47,583 nt of DNA from Bacteroidales bacterium (GTDB taxonomy: Bacteria > Bacteroidota > Bacteroidia > Bacteroidales > UBA932). The position numbers and the translations under genes are program-made. The stretch is taken from positions 1 through 47,583 of the forward strand of contig JAGAFU010000026.1 of assembly GCA_017627955.1 (NCBI GenBank), in the 5' to 3' direction. The notes beneath the pieces were generated by a model, which saw only the letters and a program-made list of their open reading frames with translations, did no database searches and was not told the origin of the DNA. Shown piece by piece: positions 44,172 to 47,466 of this stretch; the stretch's first letter is position 1; each line of letters starts with the position of its first letter.

Positions 44172-47100
44172 ATGAAAAGGATCAATTACATTTTGGCAGC
44201 CTTAATTATGATGCTTGCCGGTTCTTGCTCCAGGATGGAGGAGAACATCATCGGAAACGACCCGGTTCAAGGTTCAAAACTTACGTTCAAGGCGACCAAC
44301 GGGGATAATCCCGAGACGAAGACCGTCCGTCAGGACGACGGCAGTATATGGTGGTCGAAGAACGACGCCATCAATGTGTTCTGCGGCAACGCCAAAGGAC
44401 AGTTCACGACGGACATCAGCGCGCCTGCGGCCACTGCCTCTTTTACTGGAACGCTTGAAGGGGACGCCGGGGATGCCTCCGTCTATTGGGGCGTGTACCC
44501 GTACAATGAGAGCAACAGCTTCGACGGTACTGGCGTGACCCTTACGATCCCCCCGGAGCAGAAGGGTGTCCCCGGAACCTTCGCCGACAAACTGAACCCA
44601 AGCGTGGCACGTTCAGAGACAGAATCGCTGTCGTTCTACAACGTGGGAAGTTGGTTTGTCTTCACCGTTGCGGGCGAAGGAATCACATCCGCTACCTTCA
44701 AGGGAAACAACGACGAAACAATCGCTGGTAAGGTCAAGGTCACAATGGACTCCGAGGGAAAGCCCGTCGCCGAGGTTCTCGAAGGAGTAAAGGCCATCAC
44801 CATCACTCCGGAAGACGGCGGCTCTTTTACGCCTGACAAGAAGTATCGCATTGTCCTGCTTCCCCAGACCATGGAGAAGGGATACACCATCACCCTTTAC
44901 AAAGGGAATCAGTCAACCGACTGCACCGTGACGAAAGAATCTGCTTTCGAGCGTTCCAAGTTCCGCGGAAAACACACGGTCGACAGTGGCAATTGGCATG
45001 GTGAATATATTGACATGGGTGAAGGCCAGTTATGGGCAACCATGAATATCGGTGCAACCTCTGAGACGGAGGTGGGGTCTTATTTCGCATGGGGAGAGAC
45101 GGAATCCAAGGCTAGTTACGGATGGGACAATTATGCCTGGGGAGAAAACGAGACAGGTCTCACCAAATATGTCCTGCAGAGTTCATACGGCACGGTGGAC
45201 AATCTGTCCGTTCTCGTGCCTTCTGACGATGCTGCCACGGCTGCCTGGGGCGAAGGGTGGCGAACACCGACCATGACGGAATGGATGTGGCTCTATGATA
45301 ATTGCGACAAGTCCATTGAGACAGTTGACGGCGTGACGGGATTCAGGTACACCAGCCGCATTGAAGGATACACCTCCAACAGTATCTTTATACCCGAAGC
45401 AAAGTATTATGATGGCTTATCGTTGGTAGAAGGTGAATCCAAGGTGTCATACTATTGGTCTTCTTCGCTTAATAGCGTGAACAGTGGTTATGCTCAGTCA
45501 ATGGGCCTGTCCCAGACCTACGATATCCTGAATGGGACAACTCCGAAATACCGTTATCAGGGTCTCCCCGTCAGGGCAGTGTGCATTCCTCCGATTCCGG
45601 TTACAGGTATCAATTTAAACAAGTCCTCCATCAGTATGGAGCTTGGAGATACTCCTATAACGCTAGGCGCTACAGTGTCACCTGAGAATGCCACGAACCA
45701 GACAATACTCTGGTCAAGTTCAGACGAATCCATTGCTGGTGTCAACATAAACGGCAACGTATGCAACGTTTACCCTGCGGGGGTCGGAACGGCCACGATT
45801 ACCGCCAAGACGGCAGACGGTGGTTATACGGCTACTTGCAGGGTGACAGTAACGGGTGTCCCGACGACGGGAGTGACGTTGGACAAAACCAGTCTTATTC
45901 TTTCTCCTGGAGAACGTTATGTCTTGACCGCGACCGTCCTTCCCTCTAATGCTTCTGTCAAGACCGTAAGATGGTCCAGCAGTAATCCGACGGATGTCTA
46001 TGTAAGTGAATCGGGAGAGGTGATTGCTCTGGCGGAAAACGGATCCTCCATCATTACCGTCACGACTGATTACGGCGGCTACACTGCCACTTGTGAGGTG
46101 ACGGTTGTGTATGTTCCTGTCACGAGTGTGACACTGGACAAAACCAGTCTGACCCTTCCAATCGGTGAAAGCTATACTTCGACGGCAACGACGTATCCGG
46201 CAGATGCCTCTAATCCTGTCGTTAATTGGTCAACCAGCGATGAATCTGTCGCAACAGTTGATTACAACGGGACCATAACTGCGGTGGAGGATTGCCGGGG
46301 TGGTACAGCAACCATTACTGCTTCATGCGAGGGAGGAACAGTCACAGCCTCCTGCGTGGTAACGGTGACGGTTCCTGTGACAGAGGTGGTGTTATACACT
46401 GATGAGCTATCCCTTGTTATTGGAAGCACATTTCAGCTCGAGGCTTCCGTTCGGCCCATATATGCAACTAACCAGAACATTTTATGGAGTAGTTCTGATG
46501 AGTCCGTGGCTTCGGTGAATTCAAACGGATTAGTAACTGCATTGAAGATTGGTTCTACAATCATTTCGGCGATTAGCGAGGATGGAAGATACATAGATAA
46601 CTGTTGGATCTATGTGAATCCCGCTGAAATTAACGGTCATGCTTATGTGGAGATGGGAGTCACCTCAGCGGACGGCAAGGTCCTCAAGTGGGCAACCATG
46701 AACGTTGGTGCAACCTCCGAAACGGATTATGGTGATTACTTCGCATGGGGCGAGACAACACCATATTACAGTAGCCTGGAGCCGCTGACGTGGAAGGATG
46801 GAAAGAGCGCAGGTTATGCGTGGGAGTCCTATTTTGACACAAATGACAACGGTTCTACCTTTACGAAGTACAAGTACACTGGCGACAATATTATGACGCT
46901 TGAATCCGAGGATGATGCCGCTACGGTGAACTGGGGCAGCACATGGAGGATGCCTACGTATGATGAGTGGACTCAGTTGTGGAAAAAGAGTAATTTCACC
47001 TGGGAATGGGATTCAAACAGAAAGGGAGTAACAGTAACAAGTAAAATGGAAGGATATGTAGGAAATCAAATCTTCCTTCCCGCCGCCGGCTACTGGAATG

Positions 47101-47264
47101 GTACCTACCTCAGCGGTGCCGGCTCCGGCGGGTACTCCTGGTCTACCTCCCTGTACGAGAGCTACTCGGACCGCGCAAGGCGCGTGTACTTCTATTCCGG
47201 AGGGGTGCTCGGGAACTACAGCGCCCGCTGCTACGGGTTGACGGTCCGTCCCGTTTCAGAATAA
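44172..47264 (+). CDS. Fimbrillin-like/Ig-like/FISUMP lipoprotein, probable DGR target
   Basis: A 1030-residue surface lipoprotein. The ATG used is preceded by AGGAGG at 6 nt and opens a signal with lipobox LAGSC. Residues about 30-270 are fimbrillin/Mfa-like (KLTFKATNGDNPETKT, SIWWSKNDAINVFCG). A first FISUMP-type domain (about 275-470) begins YIDMGEGQLWATMNIGATSE. Four bacterial Ig-like (BIG_2) domains follow (about 475-815), each with a V-T-G/S-V-T-L-D-K-T-S-type start and WSSSDES core. A second FISUMP domain closes the protein (about 820-1030). Its last 60 residues are coded mostly by NNC codons (TAC, AGC, GGC, CGC, TGC, GAC), as in the variable region of DGR target proteins; the matching end of the first domain lacks this bias. 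Display on the outer membrane with a diversifiable ligand-binding tip is the inference. Confidence 0.85.
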   Translation: MKRINYILAALIMMLAGSCSRMEENIIGNDPVQGSKLTFKATNGDNPETKTVRQDDGSIWWSKNDAINVFCGNAKGQFTTDISAPAATASFTGTLEGDAGDASVYWGVYPYNESNSFDGTGVTLTIPPEQKGVPGTFADKLNPSVARSETESLSFYNVGSWFVFTVAGEGITSATFKGNNDETIAGKVKVTMDSEGKPVAEVLEGVKAITITPEDGGSFTPDKKYRIVLLPQTMEKGYTITLYKGNQSTDCTVTKESAFERSKFRGKHTVDSGNWHGEYIDMGEGQLWATMNIGATSETEVGSYFAWGETESKASYGWDNYAWGENETGLTKYVLQSSYGTVDNLSVLVPSDDAATAAWGEGWRTPTMTEWMWLYDNCDKSIETVDGVTGFRYTSRIEGYTSNSIFIPEAKYYDGLSLVEGESKVSYYWSSSLNSVNSGYAQSMGLSQTYDILNGTTPKYRYQGLPVRAVCIPPIPVTGINLNKSSISMELGDTPITLGATVSPENATNQTILWSSSDESIAGVNINGNVCNVYPAGVGTATITAKTADGGYTATCRVTVTGVPTTGVTLDKTSLILSPGERYVLTATVLPSNASVKTVRWSSSNPTDVYVSESGEVIALAENGSSIITVTTDYGGYTATCEVTVVYVPVTSVTLDKTSLTLPIGESYTSTATTYPADASNPVVNWSTSDESVATVDYNGTITAVEDCRGGTATITASCEGGTVTASCVVTVTVPVTEVVLYTDELSLVIGSTFQLEASVRPIYATNQNILWSSSDESVASVNSNGLVTALKIGSTIISAISEDGRYIDNCWIYVNPAEINGHAYVEMGVTSADGKVLKWATMNVGATSETDYGDYFAWGETTPYYSSLEPLTWKDGKSAGYAWESYFDTNDNGSTFTKYKYTGDNIMTLESEDDAATVNWGSTWRMPTYDEWTQLWKKSNFTWEWDSNRKGVTVTSKMEGYVGNQIFLPAAGYWNGTYLSGAGSGGYSWSTSLYESYSDRARRVYFYSGGVLGNYSARCYGLTVRPVSE
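47076..47251 (+). other. Candidate DGR variable repeat (VR)
   Basis: The segment runs from the Leu-Pro-Ala-Ala-Gly-Tyr codons to Leu-Thr-Val-Arg-Pro. At positions that in related C-type-lectin-like domains are Asn-rich, the codons are TAC, AGC, GGC, TCC, CGC, GAC, TGC and CTC. All of these can arise from AAC by change of its adenines. The 3' end (GGGTTGACGGTCCGTCCCGT) is poor in adenine, like an initiation-of-mutagenic-homing site. No template repeat is present in the window. Confidence 0.7.
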
Positions 47265-47295: not shown

Positions 47296-47329
47296 AACTG
47301 ACTGCGGATGCGGACAAATCTTACAAGCA

Positions 47330-47379
47330 CTGCCGCCATCTCGATCGAAAGGGATGGCGGCAGTTGCTTTTGTTTCTTT
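47330..47379 (+). terminator. Terminator of the Ig/FISUMP lipoprotein gene
   Basis: CTGCCGCCATC and GATGGCGGCAG form a perfect 11-bp stem with a 12-nt loop, followed by TTGCTTTTGTTTCTTT. Confidence 0.85.
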
Positions 47380-47408
47380 CCGGGAGTAAGCCTCCGATGA
47401 ACTGCATA

Positions 47409-47466
47409 TTGTGGCCAGGAGAGATTCTGGCTACATTTGCAAAAAGGTAAGCATCTTTTAGATTTG
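47409..47466 (+). promoter_or_regulatory. Overlapping tandem promoters pointing out of the window
   Basis: TTG (47409-47411), 20 nt, TACATTTG (47432-47439) is one candidate. The TTTG of that -7 element is itself followed after 19 nt by TAGATTTG (47459-47466), making a second. No ORF begins in the remaining 117 nt, so the gene they drive lies beyond the right edge. Confidence 0.6.

Follow-up and report, generated by a model that had tools for sequence, protein, structure and literature searches.

A FISUMP-like lipoprotein gene of an uncultured gut Bacteroidales bacterium ends in a candidate variable repeat of a diversity-generating retroelement

Diversity-generating retroelements (DGRs) with targets of the FISUMP type, and DGR targets in cells without a core (template repeat, TR; Avd; reverse transcriptase, RT), have both been published already. 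For example, in human samples the domains DUF1566, Fib_succ_major and Big_2 occur among DGR targets, which include a lipoprotein with a terminal Fib_succ_major domain (PMC4159848; this and the other sources named here are cited from excerpts). Another example is the DGR of Treponema denticola, which has remote targets, with targets also present in isolates without RT or TR (PMC4891356). In Bacteroides, DGRs acting on the tip proteins of type V pili have been described (Macadangdang et al., cited in PMC12632263). The locus presented here is a lipoprotein gene with a putative variable repeat (VR) at its 3′ end, situated close to the right end of the window, i.e., the whole stretch of 47,583 nucleotides that was analyzed (contig JAGAFU010000026.1 of the Bacteroidales assembly GCA_017627955.1). 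The window corresponds to the complete contig C12 in the host assembly (G000; 2.58 Mb in 60 contigs, 92.6% complete). With the human-gut targets it shares a lipoprotein ending in Fib_succ_major, a VR at the gene end and Ig-like domains; those targets, however, were identified by way of known templates or DGRscan TR/VR pairs, whereas neither a TR nor an RT has been found in the species of the window, and, unlike in the targets covered by the excerpt, variability is limited to the second of its two FISUMP-like domains. The likeness to the T. denticola system lies in several dispersed targets, many of them lipoproteins, and in targets without a core; the differences are the phylum, the FGE-type target domain and the comparison of strains of one species, where here genomes of many species in a genus are compared. 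The pilus-tip DGRs belong to the same order and act on adhesins derived from surface lipoproteins. The interesting part of the present case is the frequency of core-less targets. No report of core-less FISUMP targets in Bacteroidales was found by a search of titles and the beginnings of abstracts, which covered few subscription papers and preprints.

The stretch 47091–47240 can be read, with a probability of about 0.9, as the VR of a DGR. The strong evidence for it is comparative and does not lie in base composition. In the host genome there is one further tail of the same kind, at the end of a 468-residue FISUMP-like lipoprotein encoded on contig C47. Between the two tails, mismatches at codon positions 1/2/3 number 22/16/18 over 64 codons; upstream of the tails they number 35/37/68 over 102 codons. 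In the tails, 27 codons differ at position 1 or 2, and 22 of these have an identical third base, against 13.6 expected with shuffled third bases (p ≤ 5e-5); upstream, it is kept in 15 of 50 changed codons (12.6 expected, p = 0.26). A similar result was obtained with the tail of genome G002, where the third base is kept in 23 of 26 changed codons (13.7 expected). Such kept third bases are expected if both tails were copied from one template and altered at its AAY codons (AAC or AAT, asparagine); selection on the protein sequence does not predict them. For this reason, ordinary rapid evolution of FISUMP paralogues, or recombination among them, under positive selection and with no retroelement involved, appears very improbable. 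FISUMP tails are certainly numerous and paralogous (at least four stand in a row in G077:C63), and some of them show many differences from known TRs at bases other than adenine; the kept third bases are nevertheless not predicted by this explanation, and neither is the contrast between VR-like pairs of tails, with 0.59 of third bases kept in the tail and 0.29 upstream, and adenine-rich pairs, with 0.31 and 0.33, respectively (tails of fewer than 50 profile positions and upstream parts under 200 bases or 60 aligned codons were dropped).

Template repeats of related genomes provide the second line of evidence for a VR. Several congeneric TRs translate to the tail of the window protein with asparagine at the variable places, as in G257 (FLPAAGNRNDSSLNNAGSNGNYWSSSLNTDNPNNAYNVNFNSSEVNRNNNNRNNGQSVRPVTE). 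The window deviates from the G257 TR at 36 of 55 adenine positions vs 32 of 134 others (p = 1e-7), and from the TR of G651, a genome of another family, at 36 of 54 vs 35 of 129 (p = 7e-7). This concentration of the deviation at TR adenines holds for all five window-class TRs (p from 2.5e-3 to 3.6e-8); it is weaker for the C47 tail (best p 3.7e-4 or 1.3e-5, worst p 0.049). Five congeneric TRs define 19 columns in which at least 60% of them carry AAY. Of these 19 columns, 2 read AAY in the window and 2 in the C47 tail, and the third base is a pyrimidine at 18 and 19 of them, respectively. Because a deviation from asparagine codons could also stem from variability at the protein level, the third-base test against C47 is the stronger point.

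The initial annotation, made from the letters of the window, had already proposed a DGR target here, and the third-base test with the C47 tail, the TR-adenine deviation and the cassettes of congeners all speak for that proposal. It had placed the variable stretch at 47076..47251; its position at the 3′ end of the gene stands, the better bounds being 47091–47240, with 47241–47264 looking unvaried. The latter segment has TCCGTCCCGTTTCAG in common with the TR and the VR of the congener G084. The annotation had also described the tail as dominated by TAC, AGC, GGC, CGC, TCC, TGC, GAC and CTC, a word that is too strong for what is a marked enrichment: these eight codons make up 25 of the 62 codons of the tail (47076–47261) vs 132 of 968 elsewhere in the gene (Fisher p = 6e-7). 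The tail of the first FISUMP-like domain, offered as an internal control, serves for codon use (9 of 60) and is unusable for the adenine test, because its DNA aligns with the TRs over just 8–41 bases. The run AGC GCC CGC TGC TAC GGG was found at 47220–47237 as described, and the ancestor guessed for it, AAC AAC CGC AAC AAC GGG, has a near match in the actual TR of G651 (AAC AAC CGC AAC TAT GGG). Depletion of adenine was rejected as sole evidence. The VR core holds 23 adenines in 150 bases, against a share of 26% elsewhere in the gene (binomial p = 9e-4) and 22.5% for the first FISUMP-like domain, and this is weak when taken alone because 17 of 981 stretches of 150 bases within the gene, and 9.6% of those on the + strand of the contig, are equally adenine-poor.

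Complete cassettes with the same tail have been found in congeners. A search with the RT of G084 as query among 400 genomes of the genus, host included, gave DGR-type RT matches in 51 genomes at E ≤ 1e-5 and in 32 at E ≤ 1e-30, the host having none. A TR/VR pair was present at 15 of 20 fetched RT loci and missing at five. Over 16 listed pairs, 324 of 345 mismatches face a TR adenine, in a scan whose scoring favors such mismatches and in which pairs under 70% were dropped. In the relatives with a pair, the TR mostly lies ~0.6–1.2 kb from a VR. In G084 the order of the cassette is VR, an Avd-like open reading frame, TR and an RT with the motif LPIGNLTSQ; the Avd-like frame has a weak match to phrog_3206 (E 5e-4) and none in Pfam. 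A scan of genome contigs with the G084 RT returned a sole locus, the record of G084 itself (Bacteroidales bacterium, horse faeces). The single TR of G084 faces VRs on three contigs, with 22 of 23, 19 of 19 and 25 of 27 mismatches at TR adenines. In G651 (~10 contigs, 100% complete, one RT match), tails are present on at least six contigs among the matches listed, and two tails near the core differ from the TR at 24 adenines plus one other base and at 25 adenines plus none. An adenine-rich, template-like tail also stands beside a VR at C5:105300–106900 of G651 (L349), the RT match of this genome being on C3; it is possibly a TR without an RT of its own. Two other loci, L130 and L304, are single open frames, each with two VR-like tails, one internal and one near the end.

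Several observations weigh against assigning the tail to a DGR. The TRs used in the adenine test all come from other species, and 32–43 of the 134–145 positions other than adenine differ as well. A fourth tail of G084 (C58, L032) has 25 mismatches at adenines and 20 elsewhere, and the remaining fetched VR-like tails of G651 have from 10 to 56 mismatches away from adenine, several of them 30–56; these G651 tails are therefore older or copied from other templates. In the host assembly, no DGR-type RT was found with RVT_1, the G084 RT query or the DGR-RT profile A2, and no TR-like copy of the tail was detected by blastn (E ≤ 10) or by a protein search with the tail. The sole near-copy in the host is the C47 tail, itself VR-like, and within 11 kb around it there is no TR/VR pair. 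The template and the RT, which the initial annotation had reported as absent from the window, are thus found nowhere in the host assembly, the contig of the window included. The annotation had named the lack of an RT or adenine-rich near-copy, together with no excess variation of the codons between strains, as grounds for giving up the DGR reading; the RT and the near-copy are lacking here, in an incomplete assembly and on a contig that ends 319 bases past the stop codon, which leaves this objection half standing. The only RT of the host recognized by RVT_1, on C24 (L009:1270–2571), was rejected as a DGR partner: it is UG26-like, with a best match to RT_UG26 at E 9e-155, a class filed under DRT in PADLOC, and reads AGTPTAP where DGR RTs read IGNLTSQ. 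Profile A2 matches just part of this C24 gene. Partial RT matches similar to the C24 enzyme were also seen in other congeners.

Under the DGR reading, a TR located elsewhere and coding mostly asparagine (AAY) at about 19 positions would be transcribed; a DGR RT that misreads adenines would copy the transcript to cDNA; and the mutated cDNA would replace the end of the lipoprotein gene, altering residues in a surface-exposed C-type-lectin-like domain. The sequences themselves hold the VR signature and two tails on separate contigs (C12 and C47), and in congeners whole cassettes occur with this tail. Adenine-mutagenic homing would then operate, or have operated, in the species of the window, at least one of the two targets presumably being reached in trans, and the tail of the lipoprotein would be displayed on the surface and bind a ligand. 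The features of the locus are collected in Table 1.

Table 1. Features at the right end of the window, with position, strand and basis of each assignment.
Feature	Position	Strand	Basis
Variable-protein gene (1030-aa lipoprotein, ATG at 44172, stop codon ending at 47264)	44172..47264	+	translation
Signal peptide with lipobox-like LAGSC	44172..44228	+	translation inspected by eye, without a signal-peptide program
First FISUMP-like domain, ordinary tail codons	44946..45590	+	codon-use control
Second FISUMP-like domain, predicted C-type-lectin-like fold	46626..47261	+	
Variable repeat (VR) core	47091..47240	+	third-base, TR-adenine and AAY-column comparisons
Unvaried 3′ end, candidate initiation-of-mutagenic-homing (IMH) region	47241..47264	+	putative IMH role
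Two hairpins directly after the stop codon	47265..47369	+	RNA fold; self-inverted match 47325–47369
End of IS110-type repeat, contig break	47443..47583	.	shared contig ends

The product had been described as an exported, multi-domain protein with FISUMP domains, and this description is borne out by a putative signal peptide, two FISUMP-like domains and, between them, four Big_2 (Ig-like) stretches recognized by Pfam. The name FISUMP has to be qualified: with the NCBIfam model TIGR02145 the protein scores 25.8 bits, below the curated cut-off of 41.65 (best stretch 358–470, in the first domain), and the two domains, 38% identical to each other, are therefore called FISUMP-like by similarity. In the predicted model, the C-terminal domain adopts a C-type-lectin-like fold; sequence searches of the PDB gave no match, and neither did Foldseek against the PDB at E ≤ 0.001. 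The hairpins that follow the gene are terminator-like, and the second is partly kept 3′ of the C47 VR, where 47296–47374 matches C47:54889–54968 at 74%. Further on, 47385–47448 is 95% identical to C7:19792–19855, a short repeat. The last 141 bases of the contig are identical in C19 (1–141) and the last 137 in C33 (5–141), and G067 holds a partial match to this repeat (query 10–75, 89%) ~240 bases before an IS110 transposase with the domains DEDD_Tnp_IS110 and Transposase_20. Because of these shared ends and of the copy near a transposase, it is probably an IS110-type element that breaks the assembly ~180 bases past the stop codon; the shared ends of 137–141 bases would fit a 141-mer assembly. 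That the terminal 141 bases might be where a DGR core begins was also considered and rejected, the repeat being of IS110 type with at least three copies in the assembly. A plasmid collection gave no match for the contig end.

The RT and the TR are missing from a 92.6%-complete assembly, and the locus is not classed as a complete DGR system. They are either outside the assembly (on a missing contig or a mobile element) or lost. We give roughly even odds to a working core that the organism has and the metagenome-assembled genome lacks; it might sit on a plasmid, in a prophage or on a contig that was not binned, or lie past the IS110 break. This would agree with an assembly of 60 contigs, with a contig that stops at a repeat so soon after the gene and with the short distance between TR and VR in most relatives. 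Viral contigs (IMG/VR) point in the same direction. Among the best 80 of 303 viral-contig loci, 61 have an asparagine-rich, template-like tail of the FISUMP type of the window, 43 have an adenine-poor tail and 40 have both kinds; thus, host lipoproteins and viral proteins would share one target module. In viral DGRs such as L223, L238 and L289, the tail encoded by the TR is of the same kind (FFPAAGNxNGTSxNN...NNNNRYNG); these differ in being on viral contigs, and most of the listed tails terminate in RAVQ (39) or RPVQ (12), where the window reads RPVSE. On the other side, one congeneric TR peptide had no match in the phage and plasmid collections, and no core was seen in many high-quality assemblies with such tails. 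Viral contigs likewise held no exact copy of a 20-base string taken from the 3′ end of the VR.

The extent of core absence was estimated in 64 genomes of the genus, host included, with a DNA match to the tail of the window (at most two candidates scored per genome). A long DGR-type RT match was present in six of them (G084, G202, G299, G048, G314, and G164), and in 4 of the 34 of high quality; the share without a core is a biased estimate, because the set was drawn by DNA similarity to this tail. The TRs around the RTs of G299, G048, and G314 are of types other than that of the window. A window-class TR together with an RT has been found in five genomes (G084, G202, G257, G339, and G404), two of them within the 64-genome set. 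In the order as a whole, 40 of 68 tail-bearing genomes were searched, and an RT match at E ≤ 1e-20, in some cases a partial one, was obtained in 11. At this limit no match was found in G478, an assembly of ~10 contigs and 100% completeness with 12 tails. Because no core is seen in this assembly and in others of high quality, incompleteness alone hardly explains the absences. In G077, no DGR RT was detected, and the run of at least four FISUMP tails at C63:1–12000 (L174) includes several VR-like ones.

Loss of the core, with both host tails as leftovers of past diversification, is given a chance somewhat short of even. Core-less targets of T. denticola isolates have been interpreted as leftovers (PMC4891356), and G478 has congeners, G651 and G724, in which cores are present. 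Loss fits less well with tails that are open and keep the third-base pattern, and it would have to have occurred several times across the genus. It also fits less well with the changes between species. The host C47 gene and its counterpart in G326 are 84% identical over 120 codons upstream, with mismatches of 13/10/36 by codon position; in the tails the mismatches are 25/25/8, 32 of 63 codons have changed, and 29 of these 32 keep the third base (14.1 expected), which suggests rewriting after the species split, as a core outside the assembly would allow. The upstream control of this pair is also above chance (14 of 21 kept, 5.7 expected, p = 1.5e-4), since third bases are shared between close orthologues, and the telling part is the excess of change in the tail. 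In a second pair, G002 and G458, the upstream part is 92% identical (2/2/20 over 100 codons) and the tails differ by 21/11/15, with the third base kept in 18 of 24 changed codons (11.2 expected, p = 1e-3). Among pairs with an upstream identity of 0.6 or more (424 pairs, 42 loci), taken after exclusion of a hand-made list of RT-bearing genomes, with the RT profile search covering only part of the remaining ones, the third base is kept in 64% of changed codons in the tail and in 31% upstream; for adenine-rich control pairs (13 pairs, 9 loci) the values are 32 and 39%. Pairs share loci, and their counts are not independent. Taken together, these comparisons suggest that rewriting went on after some of the species had separated, in lineages that today show no core; tail exchange between paralogues may explain single pairs.

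A wider proposal, which we regard as rather unlikely, is that most genomes of the genus with window-type VRs have no core of their own, and that FISUMP lipoproteins serve as a permanent pool of targets for rewriting in trans. If this were true, cores would be transient, perhaps carried by phages or other mobile elements with matching templates, and the repertoire of a core-less cell would stay frozen until it received a core. The target step of at least one survey starts from each RT (according to the excerpt of PMC8144416), and surveys of this kind would miss such targets; targets without a nearby RT can be spotted by codons that differ at positions 1 and 2 and yet keep their third base. With this locus, an uncultured gut Bacteroidales joins the carriers of dispersed DGR targets. 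If core-less targets prove as frequent as the present comparison makes them look, gut bacteria may depend on the movement of cores between cells to diversify their surfaces.

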